The notes beneath the pieces are model-generated. The model did no database searches, was not told where the DNA came from, and saw only the letters and a list, made by a program, of their open reading frames with translations. Positions 1,545 through 55,054 of a stretch of 64,000 nt of DNA are shown here, piece by piece. Position 1 is the stretch's first letter. Every line of letters starts with the position of its first letter. The stretch is from an uncultured Dehalococcoidia bacterium (GTDB lineage: Bacteria > Chloroflexota > Dehalococcoidia > Lucifugimonadales > UBA1127). A program made the position numbers and the translations under genes. The DNA lies in contig CAJWXP010000004.1 in assembly GCA_913049785.1 (NCBI GenBank), positions 16,419-80,418 of the forward strand, read 5' to 3'.

Positions 1545-3785
1545 CTAGCCCTGCCGCTTGGCCCGCAACGCACGGTAGACCTTCTCAGCCGTAATGGGCA
1601 GGTCCTTAATGCGCACGCCGACAGCGTCCTCTACGGCGTTGGCTATGGCCGCTGCCACCGGAATGGTGGCGTTCTCGCCGATGCTCTTCACGTTGTATGG
1701 CCCAACGCCGCTCTCCGACTCCACCAGCACCGTACGAAGCTCAGGGATGTCCTTGATGGTAGGTATCTTGTAGTCGCCGAAGGTCAGGGTGGTCACACGA
1801 CCGTCCTCCACGGCGAGCTCCTCCATCAGCGCGTAGCCAATGCCCTGCATAGCGCCGCCGTTGATCTGACCCTGATGGCCTATAGGGTTCACGATCTTGC
1901 CTACATCGTGGGCGGTGGACAGCGTTAGCAGCTTCACCTCGCCGGTCTCAGGATCCACGGACACTTCAGCAACTTGCGCCACGTAGGCCGTGACGGGCGG
2001 GAGGCTGGCGTCCTGGAACTCTGCCTGGCCCGTCACGGAGTGGCCTGCCTTCTGCAGCAGCTCGTACCAGGAATGGTTCTCCCCGGTGTCGCGGTTGCGC
2101 ACAGCGCCATCGGTGTAGGTGAGTCGGTCTTCGGGAACGCCAAGTTGCTGCGCTGCGGTCTTCAGCAGCTCGGACTTGACCTCCTGGGCCGCTGCGTAAG
2201 CCACCTGGGTGCCGATGCGCGTCACGCGGCTGCCACCGACGCCAGAATCGAAGTCTACGGTGCCGGTGCGCCAAATCTCGAGCCCTATGTGCTCGATGGA
2301 GATGCCCAGCTCCTCGCCTACGACCTGCATCTCCAGGGTGTAGGTACCGGTACCCTGCTCAAACACAGGGGTGCTGAGGAGCACAGAGCCGTCAGGGTTC
2401 ATCGTGATCGCTGCCGTTGACTGACCGCCACCGGGAGGCCTGTCCCCGAGTGCTATGCCCCTGCCGATGTTTGGTGCCTTGGGCTTGCCGTACTCGCCGG
2501 TCTCAACAGCAGCTTCCATGGTCTCCCTGATGTTGATGCCCTGGAAGGTGTGGCCAAGGCCGTCCTCCTCACCAGCGCGGACGACGTTCATACGTCGCAC
2601 TTCCAGCGGGTCCATTCCTAGCTCCCGGGCCACCAAGTCCATCTGCGATTCCATGACAAAGGCCGCCTGGGGCTCTCCCGGGCCTCTCATGTGGCCGCAG
2701 GGGATGTTGTTCGTGTAGACCTGGATGCCCTCGACTTTGACGTTGGGAGTCCGGTAGGGGCCACATGCGTGGGAGAAGCCCATCAGGTTCACGCCGGGCT
2801 TGTATGCACCGTATGCGCCGCTATCGAAGATGCCGCGAACGTGGTGGGCCACCATTGTGCCATCGCGCTTCACGCCGGTCCTCACATACATCGTCGATGC
2901 GTGGCGAGGGTTGGCAGCCATGAACTCATCAACGTAGTCCATGACCATCTTCACCGGGCGTTCACTGTGCTTGGCCAGGTAGTAGCAGAGGGGTATCTCC
3001 ATTGGAGAGCCTTTGCCGCCGAAGTCGCCGCCGATCGTGGCGAAGTTAACCTGGAACCTGTCCTGAGGGAGTTCCGAAAAGTCTGACATCTGCTGTCGGA
3101 GGCTGTAGGGAGCCTTGTTGGACGCCCATATCTGAGCTACGCCGTCCTCGTCTATCCAGACCACGCACGAGTGCGATTCCAAGTATGCCTGGTGCTGTCG
3201 AGGCGTGGTGAAGGTATTCTCAACGATGACATCGGCCTCTGCAAACCCCGCCTCGATGTCGCCCTTGCCCCAGGTGCTGTGGATGAACACGTTTGATGGC
3301 TTCTCCGGTGGCTGCGGGTAGCCCACGTAGCTCACCATGTCCGGATGGATGAACGGCGCGCCGTCCTTCATAGCCTCAAGAGGGTCTAGCTGCGCGGGAA
3401 GCTCTTCGTACTCGATTTCTATGAGGTCGATAGCCGCTTGGGCGATGTCCTCGTCGTCGGCAGCAACGGCTGCGACACGTTCGCCGGCGAAACGCACGTG
3501 ATCCCAGGCCAGGATCGGCACATCGCGGAGACGTCGCCCGTACAGGATGCCTCGAACGTCGTTGCCGGTCAGCACGACGTGGACGCCCGGCAACGCCTTC
3601 GCCGCAGTCGTATCGATGCTCACGATGCGAGCGTGGGGATACGGGCTTCTGAGCGACTTGCCCCACAGGGTGCCCGGAAGGTTGATGTCAGCGGAATACC
3701 TGGCCTTGCCGGTGACCTTCTCCGGGCCATCGACCCGGGCGAGAGGCTGGCCGAATACCTGGCCGAATGCGCTTGGCGTCGTCAT
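1545..3785 (-). CDS. xanthine dehydrogenase/CoxL-family molybdopterin-binding large subunit
   Basis: MTTPSAFGQVFGQPLARVDGPEKVTGKARYSADI..., HMRGPGEPQAAFVMES, KSIGE; RBS AAGGGG. Confidence 0.9.
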   Translation of the reverse strand: MTTPSAFGQVFGQPLARVDGPEKVTGKARYSADINLPGTLWGKSLRSPYPHARIVSIDTTAAKALPGVHVVLTGNDVRGILYGRRLRDVPILAWDHVRFAGERVAAVAADDEDIAQAAIDLIEIEYEELPAQLDPLEAMKDGAPFIHPDMVSYVGYPQPPEKPSNVFIHSTWGKGDIEAGFAEADVIVENTFTTPRQHQAYLESHSCVVWIDEDGVAQIWASNKAPYSLRQQMSDFSELPQDRFQVNFATIGGDFGGKGSPMEIPLCYYLAKHSERPVKMVMDYVDEFMAANPRHASTMYVRTGVKRDGTMVAHHVRGIFDSGAYGAYKPGVNLMGFSHACGPYRTPNVKVEGIQVYTNNIPCGHMRGPGEPQAAFVMESQMDLVARELGMDPLEVRRMNVVRAGEEDGLGHTFQGINIRETMEAAVETGEYGKPKAPNIGRGIALGDRPPGGGQSTAAITMNPDGSVLLSTPVFEQGTGTYTLEMQVVGEELGISIEHIGLEIWRTGTVDFDSGVGGSRVTRIGTQVAYAAAQEVKSELLKTAAQQLGVPEDRLTYTDGAVRNRDTGENHSWYELLQKAGHSVTGQAEFQDASLPPVTAYVAQVAEVSVDPETGEVKLLTLSTAHDVGKIVNPIGHQGQINGGAMQGIGYALMEELAVEDGRVTTLTFGDYKIPTIKDIPELRTVLVESESGVGPYNVKSIGENATIPVAAAIANAVEDAVGVRIKDLPITAEKVYRALRAKRQG

Positions 3786-52868: not shown

Positions 52869-53261
52869 TTGACCTTGAACGAAGCGAACCAGGTGATTCA
52901 AGGGACCATTGCCAAAGCTGAGGAAATGAACATCAAAATCAATGTTGCCGTCTGCGATGCCGGTGGAAGGCTCATCGCCTTCTCCAGGATGGACGATGCC
53001 ATTTGGGTGGGCGTCTACGGTTCACGGGGCAAAGCAGTGGCATCGGCTGGTTTCGGACGAGCAAGCGGGTTGCTGCAGGAGCGTGCCGGCTCGCCCATCA
53101 TCAGTGGTATCGTCGCCGGCGAGGGTGGGCACATGATTGTCAGTCAGGGCGGAGTGCCCATCGTTCGAGACGGGCAGGTCGTAGGCGCTTGCGGAGTGGG
53201 TGGCGGCACAAGTCAGGAGGATGAGGACTGTGCAGTAGCCGGGGTTGCAACGCTGGGATAG
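52869..53261 (+). CDS. GlcG/HbpS-like heme-binding family protein
   Basis: LNEANQVIQGTIAKAEEMNIKINVAVCDAGGRLIAFSRMDDA, ACGVGGGTSQEDEDCAVAG. Confidence 0.88.
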   Translation: MTLNEANQVIQGTIAKAEEMNIKINVAVCDAGGRLIAFSRMDDAIWVGVYGSRGKAVASAGFGRASGLLQERAGSPIISGIVAGEGGHMIVSQGGVPIVRDGQVVGACGVGGGTSQEDEDCAVAGVATLG

Positions 53262-53280
53262 AAGCCATACACCTGCGTCT

Positions 53281-54687
53281 CTAATCACGATCGAACAGGG
53301 GCGGTCTCTGTGTGTGCCATGGAGTTGCCTGTTCATAGGCTTGAGCGATTCTCAGCACCATCGCCTCATTGAAAAGCTGCCCGGCGATTTGGAGCCCTAT
53401 GGGCAAGCCATCCTGAGTGAACCCGCAGGGCACGGATATCGCTGGAAGCCCAGAGACATTGAACAAGCTGGTGAACTGAGGTCTGCTGGCTCGCGATTGC
53501 GGATCATAGCCCTCAAAGAGGGCCGGGGGTGTTGCGACCGTCGGCATGACAAGGCCGTCTACTGTGGTCAGGAGTTCCCGCATCTGCGACACCACTGAAC
53601 CCTTCAAACGCTGGGCTTCAATGTAGTCTGTGGCGTTGAACCCCTCAGCATCACGTAAGCGGGGCAGCACATTATCGCCGAGTAGTTCAGGGGCCGTTTC
53701 CAAGGTCTTTTTGTGATAGGCCAGTGCATCCGCCCCGAAAATCACGCCGCTCGCTCGCCGTGCGTCGTCGAATGGAGCCTGAACATCGGCGATCTCAATC
53801 CCGCTATCCTTCAGCGTTTGGATAGCGGCCTCGAAGGCTTTCATGACCTCGCCGTCGACACCCTCACCCTCGTTGAACCAGTGGCGCGTCACCCCGACAC
53901 GAAGCCCGCGTACACCAGAGTCCAGCATACCCAGGTAATCGTCTACAGGCTGATTCGCGCTGCCGTAGTCGTGCGGATCGAACCCAGCCATCGCCTGAAG
54001 CATGAGAGCGCAATCCCTCACATTGCGCCCCAATGGTCCAACGTGGTCCAGAGACCAACTTAGTGGGATCACGCCGTCGCAACTGACTCGCCCGTACGTA
54101 GGCTTCAATCCAACGATGCCACATTGACTGGCCGGCGATCGGATGGATGCGCCGGTGTCAGACCCCAATGCGGCCATGCATAGACCACCAGCTACGGCAG
54201 CTCCTGAACCACTGCTGGACCCTCCAGGGCGGTAGTCCGGGTTCCAGGGGTTGCGGGCAGGGGGGAACGGTGAGTCAGAGCTGATGTTGGGCATAGCGAA
54301 CTCCTGCAATGCCAGCTTGCCCAAGAGCACGGTTCCCGCCTCTTTCAATCGAGACACCACGGCTGCGTCCTCGTCCGGCACCCATTCGATCAATGCACGT
54401 GATTGGGCCGTGGTCCGGATGCCTTTGGTGGCAAAGAGGTCTTTGAGCCCTATCGGAATTCCGTGCAGTGGCCCTCTGTCAATGCCTTTGCTGAGCTCAG
54501 CCTCTGCCACTTTAGCCTGGGCTATTGCCTCATCGCCCGTCACCAAGAGAAAGCTTTGGATAAGAGGGTCGAGTCGCTCGATACGAGCTAGGTAGGTTTG
54601 GGTCAGCTCTACAGGGGAGAGTCGCTTGCTCCGGAACAGCGCCCCTGCCTCGGCGATGGACAGGTAAGCGACATCGACCGATTCCAT
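53281..54687 (-). CDS. amidase (GatA-like)
   Basis: GIPIGLKDLFATKGIRTTAQS, GGSSSGSGAAVAGGLCMAALGSDTGASIRSPASQCGIVGLKPTYGRVS. Confidence 0.9.
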   Translation of the reverse strand: MESVDVAYLSIAEAGALFRSKRLSPVELTQTYLARIERLDPLIQSFLLVTGDEAIAQAKVAEAELSKGIDRGPLHGIPIGLKDLFATKGIRTTAQSRALIEWVPDEDAAVVSRLKEAGTVLLGKLALQEFAMPNISSDSPFPPARNPWNPDYRPGGSSSGSGAAVAGGLCMAALGSDTGASIRSPASQCGIVGLKPTYGRVSCDGVIPLSWSLDHVGPLGRNVRDCALMLQAMAGFDPHDYGSANQPVDDYLGMLDSGVRGLRVGVTRHWFNEGEGVDGEVMKAFEAAIQTLKDSGIEIADVQAPFDDARRASGVIFGADALAYHKKTLETAPELLGDNVLPRLRDAEGFNATDYIEAQRLKGSVVSQMRELLTTVDGLVMPTVATPPALFEGYDPQSRASRPQFTSLFNVSGLPAISVPCGFTQDGLPIGLQIAGQLFNEAMVLRIAQAYEQATPWHTQRPPLFDRD

Positions 54688-54757: not shown

Positions 54758-54812
54758 GGGTCAGACAACCAGAGCCGACCATACAGCCCGAACCAGACGC
54801 GGTCAACGTAAT

Positions 54813-54844
54813 AAAAGAAGGGCACCTTAGGGTGCCCTTCTTTT
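54813..54844. terminator. bidirectional terminator downstream of tRNA-Pro
   Basis: AAAAGAAGGGCACC-TTA-GGGTGCCCTTCTTTT. Confidence 0.8.
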
Positions 54845-54850
54845 ATGTAC

Positions 54851-54927
54851 TGGTCGGGGAGCCGGGATTCGAACCCGGGACCTCTACGTCCCGAACGTAG
54901 CGCGCTACCATGCTGCGCTACTCCCCG
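54851..54927 (-). tRNA. tRNA-Pro(CGG), CCA encoded
   Basis: CGGGGAGTAGCGCAGCATGGTAGCGCGCTACGTTCGGGACGTAGAGGTCCCGGGTTCGAATCCCGGCTCCCCGACCA; all arms pair, anticodon CGG. Confidence 0.95.
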
Positions 54928-54977
54928 ATTATCGGCCAAAACCGGCCCTTTTTTGTTGTCGTTATATCAACGTCGGT

Positions 54978-55019
54978 GTCCCGAACGTAGCGCGCTACCA
55001 TGCTGCGCTACTCCCCGAT
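54978..55019 (-). repeat. perfect 42-bp duplicate of the 5' half of tRNA-Pro
   Basis: identical to 54888..54929; spans acceptor 5' strand through anticodon loop. Confidence 0.9.
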
Positions 55020-55048: not shown

Positions 55049-55054
55049 ATTATA
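55049..55054 (-). promoter_or_regulatory. TATAAT -10 element upstream of tRNA half and tRNA
   Basis: + strand ATTATA about 32 nt upstream of the half-tRNA first base; -35 weak. Confidence 0.5.

Follow-up and report, generated by a model that had tools for sequence, protein, structure and literature searches.

In tRNA-dependent lysogeny, the host tRNA is split and not rebuilt, and the phage supplies a replacement tRNA (PMC10865867). The system has been documented with tyrosine integrases, mostly of actinobacteriophages, and has also been suggested for prophage Lj965 (PMC10865867). With integrases of the archaeal pTN3 type, attP instead contains a tRNA 5' half from which the gene is rebuilt, and targeting of the 5' half is described as unique to one archaeal integrase group and seldom met in bacteria (PMC8371274), in keeping with the remark in an earlier note on the DNA studied here that a copy of the 5' half is atypical. 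It is well known that partial copies of tRNA genes occur next to genomic islands (PMC9897764; Islander, PMC4383910).

The locus that we analyzed resembles each of these in part. As beside islands, a displaced tRNA fragment would mark the end of an element, but here the displaced part is the 5' half, it lies only 48 bp from the full gene, and no island stands between the two. The junction is in the 5'-half or anticodon region of the tRNA, as with pTN3-type integrases, whereas the right junctions found in related genomes are without a 5' half. The closest working parallel is tRNA-dependent lysogeny, with its split, unreconstructed tRNA and its replacement, both of them putative in our case. It differs in that the arms here look like those of serine recombinases, a collapsed scar remains, and the tRNA adjoins the left arm behind the host promoter. 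The scar may work like tRNA-dependent lysogeny, but we do not class it as a member, since tyrosine integrases are the agents documented for that system and the replacement tRNA of our case is putative.

The tRNA-Pro locus in the window

The window is a stretch of 64,000 nucleotides from the genome of an uncultured Dehalococcoidia bacterium (G000). Within it, positions 54888-54929 and 54978-55019 are exactly identical over 42 nt and lie 90 bp apart, and an exact repeat of this length at such a short distance is far beyond chance. The first copy falls at the start of a tRNA-Pro(CGG) on the minus strand (54851-54927; ARAGORN call, Rfam 67.1 bits), and sequence comparison, ARAGORN, and Rfam thus agree with the duplication and the tRNA identity given in the earlier note. 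The displaced copy contains tRNA nt 1-40 and two upstream bases, AT. It ends where the anticodon loop gives way to the 3' strand of the stem, of which it includes one base; the note had rightly limited it to the 5' half through that loop. Along the minus strand, jag (coding for a Jag_N/KH/R3H protein) is followed by TATAAT, the half, the 48-bp spacer, the full tRNA, a terminator hairpin, and an amidase gene. The TATAAT that had been noted upstream of the half is present (55054-55049), but it precedes the half by 29 nt and not by about 32. The features are as follows, G003 being a genome of the same genus and G039 one of a different family.

54978..55019, minus strand: displaced tRNA-Pro 5' half, an exact 42-nt repeat that is missing from the same locus in G003; we read it as the native 5' half at the left junction of an element
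54954..54977, minus strand: 24-bp arm-like motif ACCGACGTTGATATAACGACAACA immediately after the half, common to 20 other spacers (leave-one-out score 19.5, background mean -27.9, sd 9.2)
54930..54953, minus strand: rest of the 48-bp spacer, unconserved in alignment with G003 and G039
54888..54929, minus strand: 5' half within the full tRNA, matching the displaced copy as an exact repeat
54851..54927, minus strand: full tRNA-Pro(CGG) by ARAGORN and Rfam, its 5' part putatively of element origin
55049..55054, minus strand: TATAAT-like -10 box of the native promoter, seen in the sequence and kept in G003
54811..54846, minus strand: native terminator-like hairpin 3' of the full tRNA, a 16-bp inverted repeat with a homologous hairpin in G003

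We checked essentially all of the 45 tRNA matches in G000 and found no exact upstream 5' half besides that of tRNA-Pro(CGG); nor were copies of the spacer seen elsewhere in this genome. An apparent second 3' half near window position ~41,050 is a chance match within a protein gene. On contig C18, a degenerate tRNA-like fragment (47 nt, 81% identical) is found 74 bp upstream of a full tRNA-Ala gene (L131:1425-1500); it has a different anticodon arm and is without the T arm and the 3' acceptor strand. On contig C20, a 30-bp segment distant from tRNA genes (3186-3215; L003:1501-1530) matches the anticodon stem-loop of tRNA-Pro at 93% and is possibly a decayed tRNA-Pro remnant; there are no element features there, and we rejected it as the trace of an element.

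Empty and filled sites in related genomes

At the same locus, G003 has the same jag, -10 box, leader, and tRNA-Pro(CGG), followed by a homologous terminator, and has neither the half nor the spacer. No match to the half-plus-motif pattern or model was found in G001, G002, or G004, the remaining members of the genus, and half tRNAs noticed in G001 and G004 proved to be contig ends. These comparisons suggest that either G000 holds a 90-bp insertion or the other members of the genus have lost it; clean loss is conceivable because recombination between the 42-bp repeats would remove 90 bp. Downstream of the terminator, the flanks of G000 and G003 differ. The amidase gene (window 52869-54687) stands between tRNA-Pro and an HbpS-like gene and is missing there in G003, and G002 has another gene 3' of the tRNA, the downstream flank being variable within the genus and the jag side conserved.

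A second polymorphism was found in genus g63, where we compared 19 genomes at the tRNA-Pro(TGG) locus. In G134, G137, and G126, the leader is separated from the tRNA by half, motif, and spacer, while most of the others have the tRNA alone and G144 retains a truncated spacer. Decayed halves are present at other places in G143 and at a second locus of G136. Both genera, the pair G003 and G000 and genus g63, thus show the empty and filled forms of one site that mark an integration scar.

Across the same class of Chloroflexota, we found about 20 further loci with a tRNA-Pro 5' half, a spacer of ~27-90 nt, and a full tRNA-Pro. G039 carries the half of its own tRNA-Pro, then a spacer of 48 nt, and then the beginning of a tRNA. 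Pattern and model searches recovered the layout within the order in G046, G058, G065, G083, G166, G208, G134, and G136 and elsewhere in the class in G254, G349, G374, G385, and G424 (G596 and G385 being one genome, judging from identical match positions); weak matches in G090, G211, and G450 were unrelated or plain tRNA. The motif model matched 10 of the 247 genomes of the order, and a full tRNA-Pro lies shortly downstream of the order matches examined; because the model contained the anticodon loop, the tRNA half at these matches is partly there by construction, but the downstream full tRNA-Pro is not. The affected genes include tRNA-Pro(TGG) in G134, G136, G046, G126, and G137. The half copy is therefore present in relatives from several families, contrary to the possibility, raised in the earlier note, of its absence from all of them.

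A close direct repeat is what a simple tandem duplication or an assembly artefact would leave, and a few of the homologous cases lie at contig ends. We consider this explanation hardly credible, as the spacer is no evident copy of the flanking DNA, its start is common to the spacers of other families, and the homologous layouts come from many independent assemblies, including G126, where the filled site is in a single-contig genome.

The crossover position appears fixed, the half ending at the anticodon loop in G000 and in every relative examined, while the total spacer length ranges from 27 nt (G254) to about 90 nt (G126) as the part beyond the motif varies. Two tandem units are found in G083, G166, and G254, with the distal half more decayed in each: the identities of distal and proximal halves to the full tRNA are 77.5 vs. 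97.5% in G083, 72 vs. 100% in G166, and 34 vs. 95% in G254. Such graded decay is expected if units arose by serial insertion or by unequal recombination and then decayed neutrally, and it is not what a conserved RNA gene would show. The half and the full tRNA are different alleles in G137, G134, G374, and G424 and identical in G000, G058, G126, and the proximal unit of G166. The two alleles of G137 have only short identical runs in common in their 3' halves.

These patterns bear on the reading of the locus as a functional tRNA half or decoy RNA within the pre-tRNA leader, the earlier note having suggested a genome-encoded tRNA half or a decoy. The native promoter would transcribe the half, and in the predicted fold the distal half pairs with the tRNA 3' strand and can compete with the true 5' half, a fold for which we claim no function. 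Yet the feature is sporadic rather than conserved, most relatives being without a half at the same locus and the motif model finding so few genomes in the order, and distal halves as well as many single ones have decayed. We regard a functional half or decoy as very unlikely.

Arm motif and mirror-image junctions

The first 24 nt of the spacer form a motif in 21 spacers, with the consensus aCCGA.GTtGACATTACgGCAcaA. The 21 spacers have leave-one-out scores of 10.8 to 29.3, whereas the background averages -27.9 (sd 9.2); the range is partly selected because the spacers were gathered by searches using parts of the motif; G000 and G039, which have CCGACGTTGAYATWACSAC in common, were found by tRNA similarity alone. 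The ideas that the spacers are copies of promoter regions or contain a second, inverted arm failed across families.

On contig C171 of G385, a tRNA-Pro 3' half without its 5' half is preceded by TGCAGTAATGTAGTGTTCAG, which is nearly the reverse complement of the arm motif. A pattern for such right junctions matched six places, three in G385 and one each in G353, G335, and G310, and the reversed control pattern had zero matches in 380 genomes. As the pattern was derived from the one C171 example with part of the arm fixed, the matches are partly selected; GCA, which lies outside the fixed pattern, is present or one base off in five of the six, and G310 is the weakest right junction. When the left motif is joined to the inverted right motif, with ends taken from different loci, the product is a hypothetical attP whose arms are inverted about AC. 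This arrangement, with a dinucleotide at the center, is that of the sites of large serine recombinases (LSRs). In G310 and at two of the places in G385, a tRNA-Pro, decayed in the G385 cases, precedes the orphan 3' half at a distance of 1.1-3.3 kb, and other genes lie in the interval. The intervening genes code for an enoyl-CoA hydratase in G310 and for DUF4382 and thrombospondin-repeat proteins on contig C18 of G385, and on C171 there is an aminotransferase-like frame, so identified by inspection only.

The right junctions help to weigh two further explanations. The first is an element whose attachment site, as with pTN3-type integrases, is a 5' half; it would insert at the anticodon loop and restore the 5' half itself, and its interior would later be deleted to leave 48 bp. 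The position of the junction, at the anticodon loop, and the exact identity of the 5' half in G000 agree directly with this, and 5'-half targeting has a precedent (PMC8371274). We nevertheless consider it unlikely, as a pTN3-type attP should carry the 5' half and what precedes the 3' half at the right junctions is the arm, so that in four genomes the 3' half is an orphan with its 5' half unrestored. The allele differences between half and full tRNA in several genomes also stand against it, and it leaves unexplained why only short spacers remain in every case found. Still less probable, in our judgment, is a tiny nonautonomous element of about 90 bp, or an insertion that duplicated a long target site, entering in this form and moved in trans. 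Short spacers with a common end motif at all filled sites found would suit such an element, and a long duplication automatically yields exact identity; against this stand the allele differences between half and full tRNA and the length of the spacers, which varies about threefold; further spacer copies were not noticed in G000, and the orphan 3' halves are left unexplained.

A site-specific integration event of one variant or another, with the half tRNA and spacer as its scar, is highly probable, and site-specific insertion as such is well supported. Among the options of the earlier note, the scar is thus the one favored by the empty sites, the decayed copies, the conserved attachment-arm-like motif, and the mirror-image junctions elsewhere.

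Recombinases and a proposed model of integration and collapse

The only recombinase adjoining a right junction is in G335, where an intact LSR frame of 511 aa with resolvase, recombinase, and zinc-ribbon domains (PF00239, PF07508, PF13408) begins, according to which start codon is taken, about 45-85 bp from the junction; there is no tRNA-Pro within the 16 kb read around that junction. Features in common with LSR sites and elements are the inverted arms with their central dinucleotide and, beside this one right junction, an intact LSR gene. The scars differ in that the target is the tRNA-Pro anticodon loop, recombination is predicted only, and no LSR gene lies near the window, nor near most scars.

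A complete element with both junctions and a recombinase was not found, and left and right junctions were not seen together in one element. In phage and viral collections, no element matched by motif, by an attP, or by the G335 recombinase; the matches on viral contigs were chance matches in coding DNA or ordinary tRNA-Pro genes. A tyrosine integrase, which in tRNA-dependent lysogeny goes with a core of about 10 bp, seems improbable as the agent: G000 has just two PF00589 proteins, each with a similar match in G003, and none near tRNA-Pro, and the G335 recombinase is of the serine type.

LSR genes end convergently at the 3' end of tRNA-Pro(CGG) in G083 (L181:1-1532, degraded) and G016 (L212:2350-2872, an open reading frame). 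A family of LSR genes in this order ends convergently at what we take to be the tmRNA (ssrA) 3' end (L187, L207, L196, L197, L199). We downgraded the G083 gene as a candidate agent since several of its relatives end at that presumed tmRNA and it is 24% identical to the G335 LSR, and the G016 gene on the same grounds; the G083-type LSR has no match in G000.

In the model that we propose, an integrative element with inverted arms of ~24 bp around a central dinucleotide would enter the anticodon loop of tRNA-Pro and give the order native 5' half, left arm, element, right arm, and native 3' half. The element's own tRNA-Pro would lie just inside the left arm, within reach of the native promoter. 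Homologous recombination between the 3' half of this tRNA and the orphan native 3' half would then delete the interior and leave the promoter, 5' half, left arm, full tRNA, and native terminator. Tandem arrays could form by repeated rounds or by unequal recombination, and the left arm would be lost if the two 5' halves recombined, with a structure of the G310 type as the result. The allele differences between half and full tRNA fit replacement, but their exact identity in other genomes needs a closely matching, host-like donor or gene conversion, and the short identical runs of the G137 3' halves make recombination between alleles less easy. The element was probably moved by an LSR. For the window scar, we infer the LSR identity, the element-borne replacement tRNA, and the collapse step, and to the three combined we give about even credence.

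More tentatively, and with somewhat less confidence than that, a class-wide family of serine-recombinase elements may split tRNA-Pro (CGG and TGG) at the anticodon loop and replace it in cis behind the host promoter, recombination between tRNA halves collapsing the elements into scars and the arrays of decaying halves recording successive invasions. If so, the tRNA-Pro of these Chloroflexota would have been repeatedly split and replaced by mobile elements, tRNA-dependent integration would extend from tyrosine-integrase phages to serine-recombinase elements and to another phylum, and the decaying arrays of tRNA halves would be a readable log of past invasions. The reconstructed attachment site of ~50 bp and its tRNA-Pro target make the proposal directly testable. 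For annotation, half-tRNA copies at such loci are likelier to be scars than tRNA-half genes.

The genome with the most right junctions, G385 (JABMQN MAG), has several tRNA-Pro fragments and 32 tyrosine recombinase matches, often clustered two or three per contig. On its contig C231 (L075:3504-5969), an SMC/RecF-like ATPase that resembles defence ATPases (LmuB and PtuA profiles) lies downstream of a tRNA-Pro carrying a half-plus-arm scar and is possibly element cargo.
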